Shown: positions 2,328-57,989 of the stretch, piece after piece
Layout: every line of letters starts with the position of its first letter
Numbering within the stretch: position 1 is the stretch's first letter
Assembly: GCF_048128805.1 (NCBI RefSeq)
Contig: NC_136003.1
Coordinates: 24,943,340 to 25,007,339, forward strand
Length of the DNA: 64,000 nt
Reading direction: 5' to 3'
Origin: Centroberyx gerrardi
Taxonomy: Eukaryota > Chordata > Actinopteri > Beryciformes > Berycidae
The notes under the pieces: generated by a model
The model's input: only the letters and a program-made list of their open reading frames with translations
Databases searched by the model: none
Told to the model about the DNA's origin: nothing
Made by a program: the position numbers and the translations under genes

Positions 2328-4885
2328 GTGACGAGTCTTTCTGTTGGTCCGAACCATTTGTGCCAAATTGTATGTATTCCTCTGTCAATGCTTTGAATAT
2401 TAACAGTGCATAAAAAAAAGAAAAATGTGAAGAAAATGAAGAAAAAAAAAAAACAATGAAAGAAAATTCTGTTTCTGGATACGTTTTCCTCGACCTTGTA
2501 GAAAAACAAAAATACAAAAAAGTTGTCACAGTGTGTAAGATTTGTATCCCAAATGCTCACGGGTGCTGACAGAATTTTTGCTGCAGTTTACAAAAGGTTT
2601 AACAATTTGTAGTTCTCGATCGGTTGCAGTCTTGCTCAAGCGAAGGCCTGCACTGTGCCTCTGTCCGTGCACACAGCTTACCTCATCCCGAGGCACCTCC
2701 CTCCACATCCATGTCCTTCTCACTGTGCTTTACTCGCCCTCAGCTGTAGGCTACATCATGTCAACCACAACAGACTGATTTCTCCTACGTGTTTACAACC
2801 ACAACGTCAGTATCACAGTGAAAAGGAAGTGGACAAGGTGCGTGAAAGGTTTCAAAAACATCACCAAAAGACACGTAGATGCATAGAATTCTGAAATATT
2901 CCTCCACACTCCAAAGCTCCACACTCAAAAAGTTGGGTTTTTTTCCACATACTTTTTCCACATACTCTGGATTTCACTTTCTTTCAGCCTGTTTCCAAAT
3001 GGTTTGTATAGCAAGTGAGGGAGCAGATGTTTTCTCACAGCTGTGTAGGGATGTCATTGCTGCAACACAGCTGCACAGAAACCCAGCTTATTGGCTGATC
3101 GTAGCTCAGTCCTGGCCTGACCCAGACGCAACATTTCCGCTTTACAGCTGATCTCGGTTCACTCAAGGCTTATTCCAGTCGTTCTACTTTTCCTGCGTTG
3201 CATCCCCAGAGCCTCTTGGCCGCTGCAGCGGTCGCAGTCCATTATCGGCCTGCCAAAACTCCGCTCCATATCTCCCCTTCTTTCTCCATACACATTCATT
3301 ACTGAATAAAACATTACTTTGACATCTGGAATTTGAAATTGCATGCATTCATCGGCATGTGGAAAACAGATTTTTTTTCCCCCCAACATTTTCCCCTCGG
3401 TACTTTTGAACTAAAATGCCTTTGAGATGAACTCAGTCAGTGTGGTGGGTGTTTCATGTCTAGGGTTGGGGTACAAGTGAGTAGCTTGAGTGGATCTGCT
3501 GGCTAAACCCAGGCTCCGCCCCTTCCTTCCCTGGCCTACTGCCTGACAGCTTTTCCACCATGGTGAAGCTGCGATGTATGTCATCTTGAAATGCTTTCCC
3601 AGTCATTCCAGACATTTTTATGCAAGAGCACTTATCAACTCAGAGATGCACAGGGAATAAAAGCAGTGTTTCAAAGTAGAAAATGAGTAAAATGGTAATT
3701 TTCTGAACGCTTGCAGTTATAGATTTGATATTACCAATACACAGTCTTAGTTCTTGGTCTGAACAATGCGCTAAGACAATGAGCTTAGTATTTCCAATAG
3801 CTAGTTTTCTGTCTGTCTTGGCTTGTATTGCCAAAGTCCCTCGCAGGCAACCACCATCCAGCTTTGAAATGAATTTATTTCACTTTATATGGTTTCTCAC
3901 AGGTCATTCCAAACAGCAGTTTCCCTTATGTAAGAAACCACTTAATTTTGCATCCATTAACAAACACAAGATCATTCTGTGCTTCACTCAAATTCACCGC
4001 AGAAACTGTCGCACCCATTTCTCCTTCACACTATCAGTGTTTGATGTAAGCTATAGTATTTCAAGTCAAAATGAGAGGGCTCTGACGGAGGGTTATTGCC
4101 ACATCCAGAGCCGCTGTCCTCACTCATCCACTGCAAGACAACACAAACACACCCCCCTCCCTCAAAGAAAACAACCACATCTGGCTGCAGCTGCCTGTCC
4201 CTTAGTAATCACTTTAAAACTTATGCAATGCAGCAACATCACCGCAACATTGCAGAGATGCTAAGAGGGCCGCTCGCCTGGGCTTGTTCATGTACAGTAC
4301 TAGGATCCATGTTTAGATGACCAGAAAAATAAGGCATGTGTAGTAGTATGTATAGCTCGGCGTCTCTTTCATGTTAGTTTAGCGGTCGTGTAGTGGTGTG
4401 GTGCGAGGGGGGGGATGTCCTTCCAGTCGTATCAAGTTGCCAACTGCAGCCAAACCACTGCCCCCCACCCACCCCCATATCCTTACCCTCAGCACTGGCA
4501 CCGTCAGGCTCAGCTGGTACATACATGATACACATTAACCGATCTCTGGGAATGCTTCAGAAAAAACAAAAAACATTTCACATCCATCCTGCTATACACC
4601 TGCTGTTAGAGTTCAGTCACCACTGGTAATTTTCTACAAGGCATACCCCAACAGGTTGATTTGTAAGCTAGTTCTCCTCCTCGACTCTCTCCTTCCCCGT
4701 GTTGTTTTTCCCTGTTGCAAACACTCTTCTCGTCTCCACTTTGTTTTTTAAACCCTTTGAATTGATGCTGCTTCTGTGCTTGACTCTGGGTTTACTGCGT
4801 GGTGCCATGTTGTCCACATGGCCTCTAGAGCTTGTAACGCTTCAGTGTGTAATGTTACCATATGCCTTACATGTTTTCCAGGACT

Positions 4886-4935
4886 AATAAAAAAGCATAA
4901 CAAAAAAAAAGTCAGAGGAGATGTGCTTTTTTATT
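4886..4935. terminator. Convergent poly(A) signals, one per strand
   Basis: AATAAA lies on the plus strand at 4886-4891, followed by an A-rich stretch and a TGTG/T6 region that resembles a downstream GU/U element. On the minus strand AATAAA occupies 4930-4935. The minus signal is about 900 bases beyond the DTX3L-like stop codon and is a candidate end for that mRNA. The plus signal would serve a gene to the left. This is motif evidence only. Confidence 0.35.
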
Positions 4936-5574
4936 TCTGTAGCCGTTCTGACCTCAGAGAAAACACATGAATAGAACAGAATAGAATGTTTCTTACAAAA
5001 ATAATCAATTTTTACTTCCCCCATATCCTACAAATATTTTCCCATTTCTTTCTACAGTAGATCATCCTCAAAACAAGACAGGAGAGTACAAAATATACAT
5101 GTATAAAATACTGTACCATATAAAAGACACTTTTACACAGCGGCGCTCACATAAAGTGGAATACTAATTATGTTCAGGAATGTAATGAGCAATAATGAAG
5201 ACTATGGTGGCTGATCAAACAATGTTAGCTTCAGATTAAATTTGTCACAGATACATTTGTCACTTCTAGGCAAACTTGAAAAGTCAAAAATCAAACAGTG
5301 CAAATCATTTTAAAAGAGGCAAGTGCAAGGCAAGTTATAAAATTTAAAAATTTAAAAAAAGCTGCAATGGCAATCCTAACTCCAATAAAATTAAGCTTGG
5401 TAGGAAAAAAAACCCTACTGCTATTATCTTTTCAGAACTGTACATTTCAGTGTTTTACATACATAACATCATCAGCCATCATGAACCTGCTAAAACAGAG
5501 CAAAACACCTCTGGCCCTTTAATCAACATACAAATACAGTGCAAATGACATTGCCATATCGCTGCTGTTGTGTG

Positions 5575-5780
5575 AAAACCTCATAACTCCAATTTTGGTA
5601 ATTTTCATGTTTTAACTTCAGCTGAAGGATCGCATGGTTCCTCTATGGGTTGAGAAAATTCAAACCCATCGGATAAACTCAAAAATGCATGGTGGTCATT
5701 CTGAAAACAAGGCGTTTTTTCCTAGTTCCTGAAAAGTTGACGTTTGGGAGATACAAGGTTTTCACCTCACGATAATGATA
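5575..5780. repeat. Dispersed repeat, copy 1 (mate at 24690-24950)
   Basis: The stretch is clearly similar along its length, in the same orientation, to a second copy inside znf652 intron 2. Shared blocks include AACTCCA, TTTTCATGTTTT, TTCAG-TGAAGGAT, GGGTTGAG-AAATTC, GTTCCTGAAAAGTTG and GGGTTTTCACCTGA-like ends. It is an unclassified interspersed repeat. This copy sits just downstream of the DTX3L-like stop and probably within its 3' UTR. Confidence 0.7.
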
Positions 5781-5836
5781 TATACACATGAGAAAAAGAT
5801 ATAAAACTAGATAAAAACTCACGCTCAGCTGTTTTT

Positions 5837-8800
5837 TTAATCTTGAGACTTGGCTGGTGTCTCCTCAATCCCATGGGAGGCCAAGACCGCAGACAAGCGA
5901 GTCAAGTAACCGGAATCTGGGTAACCGTTCCTGAGAGAGACAAAAAGAAGACTGTTCAGCTCAAGATACATGGACTAGTGTCTCTGACCTTTAATTCTGC
6001 AGCTCCGTTAGACATGCCCGGTGGCCTCGCTCACCCTGATCTGCCGCCCTGTAGGCTGGTCTTGTGTGGGATGCAGTCCCAGGTGACCCTCGCCCCTGCG
6101 TCTTTACCGGTCACAGTGAAGGTGAGTCCCAGCCTGAAGGCTTTCTCCAGCCTGGGCAGCAGCTTCTTCGTCTTCTCACAGAGAGGAAGGAAGGCATCAA
6201 ACACTCCTCCTCGAAATGGCAACCCAGGAGAAGGGTGACCCTCCTGGTACGATACAAAGCAAAGAACACAGTCTTTAACGTTGTCTCTAGGTAATGCCAT
6301 GCAATTAAAAGATAATTTTACATGAGCTGGCTTTAATAGCACAGTCCCGTCATCAATCTACATGATTGCGGTGTAATTTAATACATTGGTTATCAGTGAG
6401 ATTTAAAGCCCCTCACCCCTTGGATGCCATCAGGGATACAGTAAGTGATCTTGACGGTGGAGTCCTTGCTGTGACCCAGCAGGCTGATGGGCAGCTCAGA
6501 ATAGCTCATGTTGCCCTGGATGCCCTGGGGCATCAGCTCGGTCTTAGGACAAACCCTGCAGTGGACGTGCACTTTGGCCAGGCACTTTGAGCACAAGGTC
6601 ACCCCACACTCCATCCTCTTCACCGACGCCCCGCTCTCCCCACACACACAGATGCCTCCCAGGCCTCTTTGAATTGACCTGGACCCCCCTGGGTTGTCCT
6701 GGATCTCCGGATCTTGCTGCCTATCATCCCTCTGGGTCACCCTGGAATGTATTTTGCTCTCTTTTTGGAGAGTGGCCATGTCTTGATCGGTATATACTGC
6801 TGCCGACCCGATACCATTCACACGTCTCACACTTCTGTCGCTTCCTTTAGCAGAATGGCTGATAGATGCGTCAGTCTTCTGTCCGTCTACCTGCACTGTG
6901 CCTGGCCTTCTCACTTTCTCCTTCATGACAGGGTCTTTCCTTACTAATGGTTGGCTAGCAGATCCATTCACAAGCTCTGCCTCACCGTTCCTCTGTGTCT
7001 CACTAGAGTCACCTCTTTGGATTGATTTCCTTTCCTGGCCGCTACCAGTCCCGTCATCTCCGCCTGTTCGGTCCTCTAGCTCCTGCGGAGGGTTACTGTT
7101 ATGGTGCAGCGTGGTATTTTGGTCCTCGTTCCCCCGTAAAGGGATAGACTGATTCCACGTGGAGGTAGAGGGGCCGGAGAAGTCCTGCTGTCCAGGAATC
7201 TGGACTGGTGCTCCAGAAAACACCTCTCTCAGTGCAGCACCCACCTGAGAACACAACTGTTTTGGGCCAAGAAGAAATAAGCTCTCCTTCAATGTCTGGA
7301 TGGAAACTTTCTTGAACCGGCTCCGCACCTCAGCACAGCACACCTCTAAAGTTTCATCTGCTGGGTCAGCCACACCCAGCACTGACAAACGCAGCTCCTG
7401 CACACAGAAATCTGCGGCAACCATGTCAACCAGCTTCTGTAAACCTAGCTGACAAGAGGTGACTGTGGACAAGTCCAGCCCTGTTAAGATGACAGTCAGA
7501 TCCCGGCTAGCTTCTAAGTGGCTCTCTTTCATCTGCAGATCAGAGGTCAAGTCTTCCAGCCGAGTTCTGAAGGCCTGCTTTATGTACTGCCACATCACGA
7601 TGGACAATTTAATCTCTGCACTATAGACTTCCCGCTTTTCCCTCCCTGTTCGGAAGCTAGATGACCTGCCCCTGACTCTGGATGTGGACGTCCCAGAGTC
7701 CTCTTGTACCTTTTGACCCAAAACCTGAGCCTTAGGCCGGGACGTACCTGAGAAACTACTGGATCGCTTCAAGCTGGACCCAGACCCAGCAGGTGGGAAT
7801 GCAGTGCTCCCTGACAGATCGGTCTGAGTTGTGCTGAGGGAGGCTGTTGTAAACTTATGCCGAGTACCCACTAATTCTGAGCTCACAGAGGTTTTAAACA
7901 AAATGTCATCTCCAGTGTTTTGAGCTACTGCTCTGGAGAGTCTCCCACCGGCAAACCCTGCTGTTTCTGACAGTACGTCATGCCCCAACATAGGACCGAG
8001 GCCTGTTCTTCTACTGGGAGATGAGACCCCTGGTAAGGCGAAGTCGCCTGATCGAGTCCCTAACCCACCCAACCCTGAGTCTTTAAACCGAGCAGCTAGT
8101 TTATACCTTCTGGCTGCGTCAGCTCTCCTCTCCTCCTCGTCTAAACTCAGCATCTTATCTGTCCCTGCTGTGGAGGACCTGGCGAGGGCGACTCTCTCCT
8201 CCTCAGCTGGATTTGATAAATCTGAGTCAAATGAAGGAGATCTAAGAAGACTGGCCACATCCTCTCCATTACCACTCACTCTACCGCGGCCCAGGAGAAG
8301 AAACTGCTTGGCCTCAGACACGTCACTACTGCTCCCAATGATGTAGACGTTTCGGTCATCTTCACTCAGAAGGAGCTTGGGGAGTCTGACACCCAAGTTC
8401 TCCATGGCCCTTGGCAGGCCTCCTCTGGGGGTGAGGATACTCTTGGATAGCTGAGCTCGACGGATCTTGGCCTCATTCTCCTGGTAAAGCCTACTTATTT
8501 CCCCGCTTGCCGACCTCAGGCGCTCCTGCTCACGACCAACCTCCCCCACCCCTGCTGCGCTCTGCAGAAACAGCGTGGTCACGCCCTGAGCTGTCACATC
8601 CACCACCTCAACACCATACTGCCTGAGGATATGCTGGTACTCCTCCCCAACGTGTTTCTGCAAATACTGGAACATGTCTGCATCCATAATGAGTGAGAAG
8701 TCCTCCTCGGCCGTGGTGGGATCCCCAGGAAGCTGCAGAGCCACAGCCCCACCCTTCGTCTGGCCTGTGTCTTCCCAACCGTGACCCTCGGGTGTCAGGT

Positions 8801-9977
8801 CTCCATGCGGGCTCGAGCTGCAGTCACCAGAAGGCCTGGCAGTGTGACCTTGCTCTGTATGTTCTCTCTGCCCATTAGCTCTCCTGCCCTGATCTACTGA
8901 GCCCTGGGTGTGAGGCCTCTGCACTGTATGGGCGGCCCTGGAGCCGCTGGAGGCAGGGTGACTCGTGTCTTTGTGTTCTGCTGATCCCGGACCTCCAGGA
9001 CGCCCGAGCAGCTGTGCCAAGGCAGCCTGGACGTGGGAGTAGGCGCCCCTCAGTGTGCACAGTTCCTCGGGAGTATTATAGTTTATCTGAACATCAGGGT
9101 GACTCTTATGAAGGCTTGTCACTGCTGCTCGTCCCAGAGGAAGCTGGCTGTAGTCGACAGTTACTGACATGCTCAAGATAACCTATGATGAGGGAAGAGG
9201 AGAGAAATAAAACATTCAGTGATTTGATATTCAGTATTCCAAGAACAATTTCTGTCATTTTTTCCACAATATTTTGGTTATCTATACCTTATCTGGTTCC
9301 AGACTTTTGCGATGCTCAGTTAAGGTTAGTTCATACTTCTTCCCATCCACTCTCAGGGTGTGTCGGCCATGTTGAATAACTCTCTGTGCCACTGTGTGAG
9401 TGGGGTCACCAGAGGGAAATCAATCTCAGTCTGTGAAGCATCCTGACTAAGCACTTTTACCACTAGCCTCTCCATTGACATGCATGCCAACTTTCCAGCT
9501 CAGTGCAAATCACTGGTGACAGGCAATACAGAACAATACCTTACACATACTACTTTGCAAATGATTGCAACTACATTTTGGGGTCTTGGAAATAAATCAA
9601 GATGTGTTCTGGGCCTCGTTATAAGAGAATGTTACTAATTGCACAGGCATTATTTTACAAAAAGTCTTTGAATCACAAGTGTGTCTTCTCAACAACATGT
9701 CTCATGTATAAAATCAATTGATTAAGTATTCAGAAAACTCCCCCTCCCTGTATAAGTAATGCACAGACACACGCACACCCTGATCTTACTGACCTCCACA
9801 GTCCTCAAAGGTGATGAGGGCAGAGCCGGGCGTTGTCTTGACGATGGTGACAGAGGCTATCTCCCCTCCCCCATGCCGGGCCCTGAGGAAGTGGATATAT
9901 AGCTTGTCTGTCAGCCTGTCATCCTCAATGTCTGTGGGCAAGCCGCTCACCCTCACTGTCCGGCCCTGCTCTGCCAT
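5837..9977 (-). CDS. DTX3L-like RRM/KH-RING-Deltex C-terminal domain protein
   Basis: Five coding exons on the minus strand: 9794-9977, 9288-9391, 6417-9182, 6035-6243 and 5837-5930. All junctions are GT/AG and in frame, giving 1118 residues. Residues 1-95 resemble the RRM/NMI-IFP35-type N-terminus of DTX3L and RBM43 (VSGLPTDI, ALITFEDCG, then VAQRVI). Two or more KH-like segments follow, one near 265-405 and one near 620-770, separated by Ser/Arg-rich linkers. A RING-like Cys cluster spans about 940-978 (CVCGES, CGVTLCSKC, HCRVC). The Deltex C-terminal domain spans about 979-1110 (GNMSYS, GIQGEGHPSPG, WDCIPHKT, NGYPDSGYL). Deltex proteins are ubiquitin ligases, and DTX3L partners PARP9 in interferon and DNA-damage responses. 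Several catalytic-position residues differ here, so activity is doubtful. At 1118 residues it is longer than mammalian DTX3L (about 740). The class is secure; the exact orthologue is not. Confidence 0.85.
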
Positions 9978-10944
9978 CTGCTGGGAGAAACACAGTCACC
10001 GCTGTAAAGGAGTGCTGGAGAAAATCAGAGTGGCTGCATGACTTTCACTGACAGCAGCACAGAAATGTCTGGATTCTGCGGTGACGGAGCGAACAGCAAC
10101 ATGATGATGACTACAAGCCAAAACACAGCGCTTCTTAATGCAACTGTTTGTTTACATACGCATACATTCAACAGGCCTATCAGGTCAATCAAATATGAAG
10201 GGTTATGCACATATTTTATAACATAACACCCTCTGTTGGGGGTTGCTAGGACACTACATCAACATACTCAAAAAACTTCCATGTCAGCTGCCATCACCAA
10301 TGACACTACTGTTTATTATTATTTTTAAATTGCAAGCCTAAACATGGAGAATAAACTTATATCTTACTTTTATTAAAGTGTCTTCTCCAACTAGTCTCTA
10401 CCTGCTTCTTAAAATAAGGCTAAATCATAGTCATGATTATGTTGAGATATTTGCTGTGATTCCGTATTTTCATAATAAAACCCGTTGCCCCCTTTTGTAG
10501 TGCAAATCACCCTGTGTTGATGTAAATATGTATTTTCATGTACAGAAATAGTTAACGCCCCTTCCTCATATCTGGCGACTGGCTGCAAAAGAATTTAGAA
10601 TTTATATAATAGTTGGACGATGTGCTTTTCGTGCATATTTGGCATTTGTAATTGTACTCGTCCACCAGTTATTCAGTGGTGACATTTCTGGACTAATTCA
10701 TCCGTCCTAGATGTACGCAAAATGTGAAAGTTTACTCATGCAGGATGTCAATAACAGCGAAAATGAAAGCCACATCGCAGAGTGGAGCTTCAAGGAAGTG
10801 CAAAAATCAGACCCATCTAAACTGCCAATCTGCACTATCGCCGGATCTGGGCTTGTTTCTAAGCGCGAAAGGAATTAACAATTAACGTTATCTCAACGGT
10901 ATCATCTTTTTTATATATATTTATTTCTTTTCTGATAATCTTAC
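9978..10944 (-). other. Putative 5'-UTR intron of the DTX3L-like gene
   Basis: On the minus strand a CAGCAG acceptor lies directly before the start ATG at 9977. A good donor (CACG|GTAAGA) ends a possible non-coding exon at 10945. The stretch between them has no coding signal. It contains GAAAATGAAA at 10759-10768, which fits the GAAANNGAAA interferon-regulatory-factor core. Confidence 0.45.
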
Positions 10945-11021
10945 CGTGCAAATCTTTCACTGCCCTTTCTTTCAAAGACCGTCGCACTCGAAACACAAGA
11001 CATGGAAGAAAAGTGAAACTA
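10945..11021 (-). promoter_or_regulatory. Putative ISRE-containing promoter and first exon of the DTX3L-like gene
   Basis: Read on the minus strand, AGTTTCACTTTTC (about 11008-11020) matches the ISRE consensus AGTTTCNNTTTC with one mismatch. It lies just upstream of a short stretch that ends in a donor (GTAAGA, exon boundary at 10945). That is the expected layout of an interferon-stimulated promoter with a short non-coding exon. The transcription start is not known from sequence. Confidence 0.45.
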
Positions 11022-11049
11022 CAAAATGATTGTGTGGTTTGTAGTTTCC

Positions 11050-11066
11050 GCGCCAGGGGGCGACCA
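11050..11066 (+). promoter_or_regulatory. Weak CTCF-like motif between the two divergent promoters
   Basis: GCGCCAGGGGGCGACC matches about 11 of 14 core positions of the vertebrate CTCF consensus. It is placed between the DTX3L-like and phb start regions. Motif match only. Confidence 0.3.
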
Positions 11067-11080
11067 AGTGCTGTCATACT

Positions 11081-11102
11081 GTGTGTGTGTGTGCGTGTGT
11101 GC

Positions 11103-11147
<45 letters not shown>
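11081..11147. repeat. (GT)n microsatellite
   Basis: About 33 GT units with a few GC interruptions at the left end, lying between the two divergent promoters. Confidence 0.95.
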
Positions 11148-11150
<3 letters not shown>

Positions 11151-11379
11151 TAATTGGCATTGTATACCAAAGTCCCTTGCGTTGTATTGATAAGGTAATC
11201 AAGACGCAAGACGATAAACATGGCACCAAAATGCTAAAAGTTAAACTACCCTGCAGCCTCTAATCAAATAAAGTGCTTGATTAGAAACACCTACTTGTGA
11301 ACAGAGTTTCTCCGTCAGAGTCAAATGTATCTCTTTAACCACCAAGTGCGTGCATTTTCTCAACAGAGTGGCTCCTTTA

Positions 11380-11571
11380 ACTACAATTACCAGAATGCTC
11401 TGTGATATTTCTCGATCACCAATGGATGCCAGGCATAATCCCGAGGCCACCATCCGCTGTCCAATCGGAGAGGACGTTGTTACCAGCGATACGCATGCGC
11501 TCTAGACGAGATATTTCATGTGTTCTGGTCCCTACGTCGTGTCCGGTGGAGGTCACAGACATCTGACTGAG
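11380..11571 (+). promoter_or_regulatory. phb: phb promoter and non-coding exon 1
   Basis: ACTACAATTACCAGAATGC at 11380-11398 differs by one base from the ZNF143/STAF consensus (ACTACAATTCCCAGAATGC). An NRF1-like palindrome (TACGCATGCGCT) occupies 11490-11501. Both factors are typical of housekeeping and nuclear-encoded mitochondrial gene promoters. A good splice donor (GAG|GTGAGT) at 11571/11572 ends the inferred non-coding first exon. There is no TATA box. The exact start of transcription is unknown. Confidence 0.6.
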
Positions 11572-12158
11572 GTGAGTTCTGATAAAAGGTGTGCTCGTAG
11601 TATCACTGAATATATTTAATAACCATAATTTGGTAAAATAACATGTCATTACTCAGAGAATGAGGCAGATTAACATAATGAATGTGTTATTCATTACGTA
11701 TTAACTGTTGGATAACGCTAACACGAGCGACCAATTTGCAAGTCGCATTTGCGTGAGCAGCGTAAGGTACATGCATGCAGGCACCAGCTTACTAGTTGAA
11801 CCTAGATGACATGAGCTATCCTATGGTTTTAGTATATCTGAAATGGTTTAAATATCGTTTACATCTCGTTAACCCTAGGCCTTAGAACCTGGTTTGGCCA
11901 GCTCAGCTTAGTAGCTAGCTAGCTTACACCTAGCCGGCGAGCTAACGTTAGCTAGCATCCTCAGCCTTGGCATTACTCAGCCCAAGGCCAAAGCCAAACT
12001 GTTACTTGACAGAGAAACTGTAACCTTGCTTGTATTTGTCACACAAGCTCAAATTGTTCAGCAAGAGCAAATGGTCTGGAGTTTATTTTAAGAGAGTAGT
12101 GATGTATAATCAAGCTTTCAACCTCTTGCATCATTTTCAGTGTCACTGGATTGCTATC

Positions 12159-14733
12159 ATGGCCAAACTGTTTGAGTCCATTGGGAAGTTGGGTCTGGCC
12201 CTAGCCGTTGGTGGAGGTGTTGTGAACTCTGCCCTTTTCAATGGTGAGTGCTGATCACTTCTGAGACTTGCATTACCTTCTTAAAAGATATTTCTGGTTA
12301 TTTTGCTAGATTTTGCCAATTGACTCTGATCAATTTGACCAATTACCTCACTGTAGAGCTTAGGGTACCTCTGAATTTGCAGGGAGTGCTGCTCTCTATT
12401 ACAGTCTAACAGGGTCAAGGGAAACAAATAGTTGAGCTCAAAAGCACCAACAACATGTCATTTCCACACTGCAGTGAGACCTGCTTAAATCAGATTTTCC
12501 AATAATCCACGATCAATGGGCTGAAAGTATATTGAGGCACGAGATTTGTTGTTAGCAAGTACAACATTAAAGTACTCTGATGTTGCGTCCATGTCACATC
12601 CGACTTAACCATAAATACAAATTGCAAACTGGGATAAAGCATTCATGTCAATCTCCTAGTGTTAATTATAAGTAGGATATGTGGGAATTTTTTGCGGGCT
12701 CTGATATCTCCCACTTGGCGTTGTGAATTTAACAAGTGTGGAAACATAAGTAGTAAACATAGCACTGCCACACTGATGTTGGCAGTCCAAGGTAATAAAA
12801 ATAAAAATCATCAGCTATATTCACACTAATACAGTCAACTTCACTTACGAAAAGTGATATTTGCTGCTGATTGATTCTAGATTCATAAATAGAAATTATT
12901 TTTGTATGTGGGCGTCTAAGCAATGCTGAAAAGTGTCAGATATTATATTATATTATAACTTGCGTGTTGTGGTAATTGTTCAGTCACAGCAATTTAAAGA
13001 CGTGTAACTGGAGTTTGAGTGTTGTGATGAAAGGGAGTTTTAATTGCTTTTTGGGTTTGACCCAGGTTGGAAAAAAAACATAGTTATCCTTTAAATTTTT
13101 TACTTTGCAGATACCTGAAGAAATGTTAAGCCAGGGTACTGGTTAAAAGATTTATGACAGGTGTAGCTTTCAACCATAAAAGGAAGCTGCATGCTGTATA
13201 CTCTGACCTTTTGACAGAGAGTCTAACTATCCTTTCTGCCACAGTTGACGCAGGGCATCGGGCGGTCATATTTGACCGATTCCGAGGAGTGCAAGACGCC
13301 GTCGTTGGTGAGGGCACCCACTTCCTCATTCCCTGGGTCCAGAAGCCTATCATCTTTGACTGCCGTTCCCGTCCACGCAATGTGCCTGTCATCACAGGCA
13401 GCAAAGGTACATCAATGAGCAATAGCTGTCCTGTCATCTTTGTTTTGCTCATACACATACGGTCTCTCCCACAAACCTTTTTCATTAAGCTCCCCCTTCT
13501 GTGATTTCCCTTAGATGCACATGGGCTAAATGGGTTCTTCTAGGCTACAACTAAACTGCAACTGCTTGCTGTGTTATCAGTTTCTTTAGGCAAATGCATG
13601 AAAGTTGTCATGGTTAACATCCTAACTTAACAACAACAATAAGAGATGTCCACAAACAATCTTGAAATTAAAGTTTGGATGGAACTCTATGAGTGGTGTG
13701 CATCCTACTTGTGTGTTAATTTCTGCCACAGCCCCAACTCTCTGTTTATCTATTAACTTTGCACTTGCACAGTCTGAGCTCTTTATCTTTGAACCATCTA
13801 CCCTACAGATCTGCAGAATGTAAACATCACACTGCGTATCCTCTTCCGGCCGGTGACCGGCCAACTCCCCCGCATCTTCACCAGTATCGGAGAGGACTAC
13901 GACGAGAGGGTGCTACCATCTATCACCACAGAGGTCCTGAAGGCTGTAGTGGTGCGTATCAGACAAAAAGAAGGATTCTACATAAACAGGCCGAACCGGT
14001 TTTGTTTAGCGAGCTGTATAAACTATTCCTGATTGTGTGTGTGTCACAGGCTAGGTTTGATGCCGGTGAGCTCATCACCCAGAGAGAGCTGGTGTCTCGG
14101 CAGGTCAGTGAGGACCTGACAGAAAGAGCATCCACCTTCGGCCTCATCTTGGATGACGTTTCACTGGTATGACTGCGCTGGTAAAATTGCCTTTACGCTG
14201 TCTGTATTATCTTTTCTATGGGGTTTTAACGAGGAAACCTTTTATCGTGTTTTTCCAATAGACACACTTGACCTTCGGCAAGGAATTCACAGAAGCTGTT
14301 GAGATGAAGCAGGTGGCCCAGCAGGAGGCTGAGAGGGCCCGTTTCGTGGTAGAAAAGGTAATGTTTGTGTTTGACACAGAAGTAGCCACCAGTTGTTATC
14401 TCCATAACACTTGTGCAGTTGTAAAGACAGTATACAGACCCTGGGGGGGAAATGTTGGGAGGTTGTAACATAGTTATTGTGAATGAAAGTAGCTCACCAG
14501 GTCTTTTTTCGTCCTTCCAGGCGGAGCAGCAGAAGCAGGCAGCCATCATCTCAGCAGAGGGAGACTCTCAGGCCGCCTTGCTCATCGCCAACTCCCTGAT
14601 GGAGGCTGGAGACGGTCTGGTAGAGCTGCGTAAGCTGGAGGCAGCGGAGGACATCGCTTTCCAGCTATCCCGCTCCCGCAATGTCACTTACCTGCCCTCA
14701 GGCCAGGGCACGTTGCTCCAGTTACCCCAGTGA
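12159..14733 (+). CDS. phb: Prohibitin (PHB1)
   Basis: Six coding exons: 12159-12243, 13245-13406, 13809-13951, 14050-14166, 14262-14357 and 14521-14733. They join in frame to 271 codons plus stop; human PHB has 272. The start ATG ([20 protein letters not shown]) follows an acceptor at 12140. Prohibitin forms ring complexes with PHB2 in the mitochondrial inner membrane, acting as a scaffold and as a chaperone for membrane proteins. The N-terminal hydrophobic segment is residues about 2-27. The SPFH/band-7 domain is about 26-187 ([33 protein letters not shown]). The C-terminal coiled coil is about 177-250 ([18 protein letters not shown]), and the protein ends in LLQLPQ. No break or missing residue is visible. 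Confidence 0.98.
12244..13244 (+). other. phb: phb intron after the first coding exon
   Basis: About 1 kb of AT-rich intron between a strong GTGAGT donor and a TTCTGCCACAG acceptor. I see no embedded gene or recognisable transposon. Confidence 0.8.

Positions 14734-23359: not shown

Positions 23360-31531
<8,172 letters not shown>

Positions 31532-43523: not shown

Positions 43524-57989
<14,466 letters not shown>

Follow-up and report, generated by a model that had tools for sequence, protein, structure and literature searches.

In DTX2, a hydroxyl-His582-Glu608 arrangement has been described (PMC7615817), and these two residues are called strictly conserved among DTX proteins (PMC7615817, PMC10810221). 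Mutating them impaired the ubiquitylation of NAD+ and ADP-ribose, and every substitution given there as tested at either position impaired the formation of Ub-NAD+ (PMC7615817). H582 contacts ADP-ribose and binding needs H594 (PMC7615817, PMC11460948). The equivalent residues of DTX3L are H707, Y719 and E733, and Y719A is defective on single-stranded DNA (PMC11460948). H707A and E733R abolish nucleic-acid ubiquitylation, and H707 and E733 are dispensable for canonical lysine ubiquitylation (PMC11467253). DTX3L is described as having an RRM and five KH-like domains through which such contacts are made, KHL1 serving dimerisation and KHL4 the contact with PARP9/PARP14 (PMC11080071). An Ala-Arg insertion is given as a feature of DTX1, DTX2 and DTX4 (PMC11467253). 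Residue numbers of DTX2 and DTX3L follow PMC7615817 and PMC11460948 throughout.

This His/Glu dyad is the basis on which the Deltex C-terminal (DTC) domain transfers ubiquitin to ADP-ribose and nucleic acids. A DTC in which both members are naturally replaced would be a ready-made loss-of-function comparator. Such domains would allow binding by the DTC to be told apart from its chemistry, and they would show the His and the Glu being gained and lost as a unit. No title on a DTC without the catalytic dyad appeared among the literature matches listed. Here we describe such a domain in a fish gene. Judging from its sequence, we hold with rather more belief than doubt that it is an intact, single-copy DELTEX gene of the KH type, whose RING and DTC have been disarmed and whose product would serve as a non-catalytic partner.

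A DELTEX-like gene with a substituted DTC

The gene occupies positions 9977 to 5837 on the minus strand of a 64 kb stretch of contig C7 (the window); the genome searched comprises 778,876,752 bases. Its five coding exons join into 3357 nt and encode 1118 amino acids with a single terminal stop. All exon borders are GT-AG, the splice sites are good and the frame is clean. The features are as follows.

9794..9977, minus strand: coding exon 1, start codon and first part of an RRM-like domain (gene model, Pfam, PDB)
9288..9391, minus strand: coding exon 2, remainder of the RRM-like domain (gene model, Pfam)
6417..9182, minus strand: coding exon 3, open over 922 codons (frame analysis), holding the KH-like candidate region, long low-complexity linkers, the degenerate RING and the first DTC part
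8297..8687, minus strand: candidate KH-like region, residues 262-390 (Pfam KH_DTX3L below cut-off, weak model hint)
6549..6656, minus strand: degenerate RING, residues 939-974, GICVCGES...MECGVTLCSKC...HCRVC (alignment; RING profiles silent)
6417..6518, minus strand: first part of the DTC, residues 985-1018 (PDB alignment, Pfam)
6035..6243, minus strand: coding exon 4, central DTC (gene model, PDB alignment, Pfam)
6067..6069, minus strand: codon of Pro1077, at the position of the catalytic His582 of DTX2 and His707 of DTX3L (IPHKT aligned to IHHKT)
5837..5930, minus strand: coding exon 5, with the stop codon and the last part of the DTC, up to residue 1109 (gene model, alignment, Pfam)
5927..5929, minus strand: codon of Asn1089, at the position of His594 and Tyr719 (NGYPD aligned to HGYPD or YGYPD)
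5885..5887, minus strand: codon of Val1103, at the position of the catalytic Glu608 and Glu733 (Val of YLTRLSAV aligned to Glu of YLQNVLAE)

Neither the frame nor the splice sites are broken, as they would be in a pseudogene. Exon 3 has no stop in its 922 codons, whereas in 500 first-order random sequences matched to it in composition even the best frame never had fewer than 20. When the protein of this exon was searched across its own genome the sole match was itself, and no second copy was found; among viral contigs, 16 stretches matched by pattern and none was confirmed as a relative.

The initial annotation had placed a DTC fold in the last two exons, within 5837-6243, which corresponds to coding exon 4, an intron of 104 bases (6034-5931) and coding exon 5. 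The fold is there. The Pfam DTC profile (PF18102), whose cut-off is 25 bits, matches residues 985-1109 at 93.2 bits, which makes the protein a member of the DTC family, and phmmer matched it to the PDB chains of DTX2 (6y22, E 2.7e-21), DTX1 (6y5n, 3.2e-21) and DTX3L (3pg6, 8.2e-18). The last two exons do belong to the domain, but its full extent was missed, for the DTC starts in exon 3. The alignments are ungapped between the HHKT motif and the end of the match. They bear out the replacement of the first His of HHKT by Pro and of the Glu after YL by Val: against the three human proteins, the catalytic columns hold neither His nor Glu. Where catalytic DELTEX ligases have His582 and Glu608, the window gene thus has Pro and Val. 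The three altered sites are real, but they give an incomplete picture. The invariant residues R535, G565, S567 and N579 are also gone, the loop before IPHKT is three residues shorter than in DTX3L-type genes, the adjoining RING is degenerate and, as shown below, the paired change recurs elsewhere.

In mutants of close relatives at these same residues hydroxyl ubiquitylation is impaired or abolished, so we strongly infer its loss here, both on ADP-ribose and on nucleic-acid ends. Less firmly, we would expect that ADP-ribose is not bound in the ordinary way and that the E2 is activated weakly, if at all. One might instead suppose that the domain reads ADP-ribose or a related nucleotide without catalysing anything, since the fold signature, the second His of HHKT, Lys584, Thr585, Pro597 and Asp598 are all kept. 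Yet H582, which contacts ADP-ribose, and H594, which is needed for binding, are both changed (in the accounts of PMC7615817 and PMC11460948), and the nearby loop is shortened. This makes such a reader quite unlikely.

The RING points in the same direction. Ordinary fish DTX3/DTX3L-type RINGs follow the pattern C-x2-C ... C-x-H-x2-C-x2-C ... C-P-x-C, whereas alignment of the window gene gives C-x-C for C-x2-C, Val for the His ligand and CRVC for CPxC. The residue after the last Cys, at the linchpin position described in PMC7615817, is Pro. No Pfam RING profile reached E <= 1 in the window protein, while four were over cut-off in each of two ordinary fish paralogues (2 of the 10 were scanned). 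Hence the gene lacks the intact C3HC4 RING which adjoins the DTC in catalytic DELTEX proteins. Next to the last Cys pair stand two His, either of which might take over as a ligand, and the region may thus still bind zinc.

Could all this be an assembly error, or the choice of a wrong exon? The gene is read from a single assembly. But the differences fall in many separate codons, frame and splice sites are clean, and among the DTC exon matches of the whole genome there is no other on this contig. No other last exon that would bring the motif back was therefore found there, and we consider an artefact most improbable.

Lineage and DTC relatives in the same genome

The window gene appears to be a KH-type relative, of the DTX3/DTX3L lineage, because its DTC lacks the Ala-Arg insertion and its introns lie where those of DTX3/DTX3L-type genes lie. 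In the alignment one intron (phase 0) follows GIQ and the other (phase 2) splits codon 593, two positions common to six DTX3/DTX3L-type genes and to the C22 gene presented below. In three of the four WWE-type genes codon 593 and HHKT share one exon; the fourth (L010) has an intron just before HHKT. Trees of the DTC leave the window gene outside the WWE-type clade (100/100). Its own branch is very long, with 2.21 and 2.72 changes per column in two trees, and its placement is unsure.

Among human proteins, DTX3L (BBAP; DTC 3pg6) resembles it in having an RRM-like N-terminus, a C-terminal RING region with DTC and no Ala-Arg insertion, to which we add the intron positions shared with fish DTX3/DTX3L-type genes. 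It differs in that H707, Y719 and E733 are Pro, Asn and Val in the window gene, in the altered RING ligands and in its KH-like domains, for which the window protein offers only a candidate below cut-off; the two DTCs are 40% identical. DTX2 and DTX1 (RING-DTC 6y22 and 6y5n) share the fold signature, with 39% identity in the DTC. Unlike the window gene, they are WWE-type, carry the Ala-Arg insertion and have dyad and RING intact.

A DTC profile search of the genome gave 30 exon matches, grouped into at least 12 genes including the window gene; this count is a lower bound, and the DTC of all 12 was read. The 10 ordinary genes keep His582 and Glu608 and have His, Tyr or Phe at 594. The three human chains bring the number of ordinary DTCs to 13, with 41 invariant columns. 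When each is left out in turn, it departs from the invariant columns of the others at 0-2 positions. The window gene keeps 28 of the 41. Hence the earlier reading of a fold kept and a chemistry lost is upheld at the level of the sequence, both catalytic residues being among the losses.

Contig C5 carries three tandem DTX3L-type copies (L015, L016 and L017), with Phe at 594. The large exon of L016 is divided between a frame at 3515-4183 and another, overlapping it, at 4134-4886, and this copy may be broken.

A second gene of this genome also departs from the rule. The C22 gene (L009, about 5230-8983), which is apparently undescribed, has Pro582, Glu594 and Leu608 and keeps 31 of the 41 invariant columns. 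Like the window gene it has Pro582, has lost Glu608, has neither His, Tyr nor Phe at 594 and has a loop shorter by three residues. Unlike it, there is no recognisable RING before its DTC exons and the N-terminus is short, with a hand-read first exon beginning MGSGQS, a start which we take to fit an N-myristoylation motif. The two DTCs are 40% identical.

The two genes have lost N523, R535, G565, S567, G571, N579, H582 and E608 in common (DTX2 numbers). These eight shared losses compare with 3.2 expected (hypergeometric P 0.00045, if columns are independent). Adding two bacterial DTCs to the ordinary set leaves 34 invariant columns, 26 of them retained by the window gene and 27 by the C22 gene; within the 34, the common losses are R535, S567, N579, H582 and E608. 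The two genes came out as sisters with support of 50/88, a value that carries a long-branch warning, and when either was removed in turn the remaining one had no firm common place in the tree.

Is the window gene simply decaying? A duplicate drifting towards a pseudogene under relaxed selection would fit the long DTC branch as well as the joint degeneration of RING and DTC. Yet the window gene has five open exons with good splice sites, its 922 stop-free codons contrast with the 20 or more stops of random sequence, and its losses cluster where the C22 gene has lost residues too. We therefore regard decay as very unlikely. The evidence for constraint is the retention of 28 of the 41 family-invariant positions together with the 922-codon stop-free exon, and within the DELTEX superfamily the window gene is probably non-catalytic and under selection.

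Bacterial DTCs and the pairing of Pro582 with loss of Glu608

The most interesting part of this case is that the paired change at 582 and 608 recurs. Searching prokaryote genomes with the DTC alignment gave 16 stretches, of which two loci were confirmed, both from Endozoicomonas; none of 19 stretches in viral contigs was confirmed. Within the Endozoicomonas family, 12 of 37 genomes have the domain, in 14 matches (L028-L041). Across the order it was found in four of 293 genomes, all four among these 12, and across the class in one of 369, the starting genome. These bacteria probably acquired their DTCs from animals. In one bacterial frame of 1058 residues (L045), a Macro domain is joined to a DTC.

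Position 582 is His in ten of the 14 bacterial domains, Thr in one and Pro in three. Glu608 is present in eight of the ten with His582; the other two, L039 and L041, carry Cys and Ser and are short, weak matches (28.0 and 30.7 bits). Thr582 goes with Lys608 (L033), and the three with Pro582 have Ile (L030), Val (L031) and Thr (L040) at 608. Taking the 13 ordinary vertebrate domains, the window gene, the C22 gene and the bacteria together, Glu608 is found in 21 of 23 His582 domains and in none of the five Pro582 domains, which represent at most four events as L030 and L031 are near copies.

Divergence alone does not remove the dyad, as L029 shows. It is 33% identical to the window DTC and 40-51% identical to ordinary fish and human DTCs, retains H582 and E608, and has Asn at 594. 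Hence the Asn before GYPD is indeed a substitution in the window gene, but it is not diagnostic as had been proposed; among these sites only the changes at 582 and 608 would be.

A single origin of the Pro582 domains was considered but is not favoured. In an unmasked tree with five of the 14 bacterial DTCs, 78% of bootstraps gathered all five Pro582 rows to one side of a branch. Once columns 582 and 608 were masked, in a tree with four of the 14, this grouping appeared in 0/200. Two or more origins appear likelier, and a single one, against which the starred branches alone do not decide, less so.

The bacterial RING-DTC proteins (L030/L042, L031/L043 and L040/L044) share with the window gene Pro582 and an Ile, Val or Thr at 608. 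They differ from it in being single large bacterial open frames and in matching a RING profile, which is over cut-off in the two that were scanned, L042 (L030) and L044 (L040). L030 and L031 further retain R535, S567, W578, N579 and H594, and of these R535, S567, N579 and H594 set them apart from the window gene. This raises the possibility that the product of the window gene still works as an enzyme. The pair of Pro582 and an aliphatic 608 would then mark a second functional state of the DTC, one that serves another ligand or the ubiquitylation of lysines rather than hydroxyls. The recurrence of the pair in the window gene, the C22 gene and three bacterial DTCs speaks for it, as do the residues kept in L030 and L031, the RING profile over cut-off in the scanned frame of L030, and the lysine ubiquitylation spared in H707A and E733R of DTX3L (PMC11467253). 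But the window gene also lacks R535, S567 and N579 and has a degenerate RING. This suggests changes in the pocket as well as in the E2 contact, and a working enzyme seems unlikely. The favoured reading of a disarmed, non-catalytic partner gains from the same recurrence, for a deliberate non-catalytic version is likelier than a broken copy when the C22 gene and marine bacteria share the paired change.

Possible partners and the upstream region

What might such a protein do? Its N-terminus matches three Pfam profiles over cut-off: NID (53.9 bits, residues 5-41), RRM_PARP14_1 (31.2 bits, residues 17-85, cut-off 27) and RRM_PARP14_3 (28 bits). An N-terminal RRM, as in DTX3L, is therefore present. 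The best PDB matches of the RRM-like domain are NMI (21nh, E 1.3e-8) and IFI35 (21ot, E 1.6e-8). NMI (N-myc-interactor) and IFI35 are interferon-linked proteins.

The KH-like candidate is less clear. KH_DTX3L aligns to residues 262-390 over nearly the whole profile with 13.8-16.0 bits, below the cut-off of 27.4, and no KH domain exceeds the Pfam cut-off anywhere in the window protein. Searched genome-wide at E <= 1, the same profile found one place, on C5, and the window is absent. A single-sequence model of residues 255-400 has the strand and helix order of a KH domain (mean pLDDT 55.4), and many KH domains are among the 50 PDB matches listed by Foldseek, the best with E 0.026 and none reaching 0.001. 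The single-sequence model of residues 612-760, taken as the candidate KHL4 region, is poor, entirely helical with a mean pLDDT of 41.5. Comparing residues 1-938 with fish DTX3L-type proteins, pairwise and by profile, gave nothing reliable for KH-like domains. KHL1, the dimerisation domain of DTX3L, was not recognised in the window protein, and 644 of 5000 shuffles scored as well.

One might speculate that the N-terminal half, with its RRM-like and KH-like parts, and what is left of the DTC surface serve to bind proteins or nucleic acid. During an interferon response the protein could then, for example, compete with complexes of DTX3L/PARP9/PARP14 or scaffold them. Such a contact with DTX3L or PARP9 lacks support in the sequence, since the KH domains are below cut-off and KHL1 is unrecognised. 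More broadly, Pro582 with a non-acidic residue at 608 might be a second, recurrent DTC state, at which fish and animal-associated bacteria arrived independently and in which hydroxyl ubiquitylation was traded for binding or another kind of transfer. The window gene would then be its extreme form, an interferon-controlled RRM protein restraining or scaffolding DTX3L-type complexes. We put this forward tentatively, as a possibility about which we are more doubtful than hopeful. Should interferon induce the window gene, fish would have in its product a natural candidate for inhibiting the DTX3L/PARP9 pathway.

A hint of such control lies upstream:

11008..11020, no strand assigned: IRF-element-like perfect match SAAAAGYGAAASY (also GAAAAGTGAAACT), the only match in 64 kb

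The sequence matches what we take to be the IRF-element consensus, of which 0.04 matches are expected in 64 kb and one occurs in 4 of 100 shuffles. A putative 5'-UTR exon of the window gene is close by, with a likely splice donor about 60 bases downstream of the site, near 10945. The site can only hint at interferon control, because it was spotted by eye before being searched for and because it sits between the window gene and its plus-strand neighbour, prohibitin 1 (best PDB match E 7.5e-86), which it may serve instead. Such a gene order, along with the gene content, suggests a teleost host. The core pattern GAAANNGAAA is unremarkable, with 15 occurrences in the window and one within 9000-12500. 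Among 25 loci, a perfect match to the consensus was found in one, L009, about 5 kb upstream of the hand-read first exon of the C22 gene.

Further along the plus strand of the window are open frames with C2H2 zinc fingers (30908-31528), with a match to the HAD-type phosphatase family PF06888 (39142-40032, 281 bits) and with a match to EF-Tu domain 2 (48560-48988). These might be ZNF652, PHOSPHO1 and EFTUD2, respectively.
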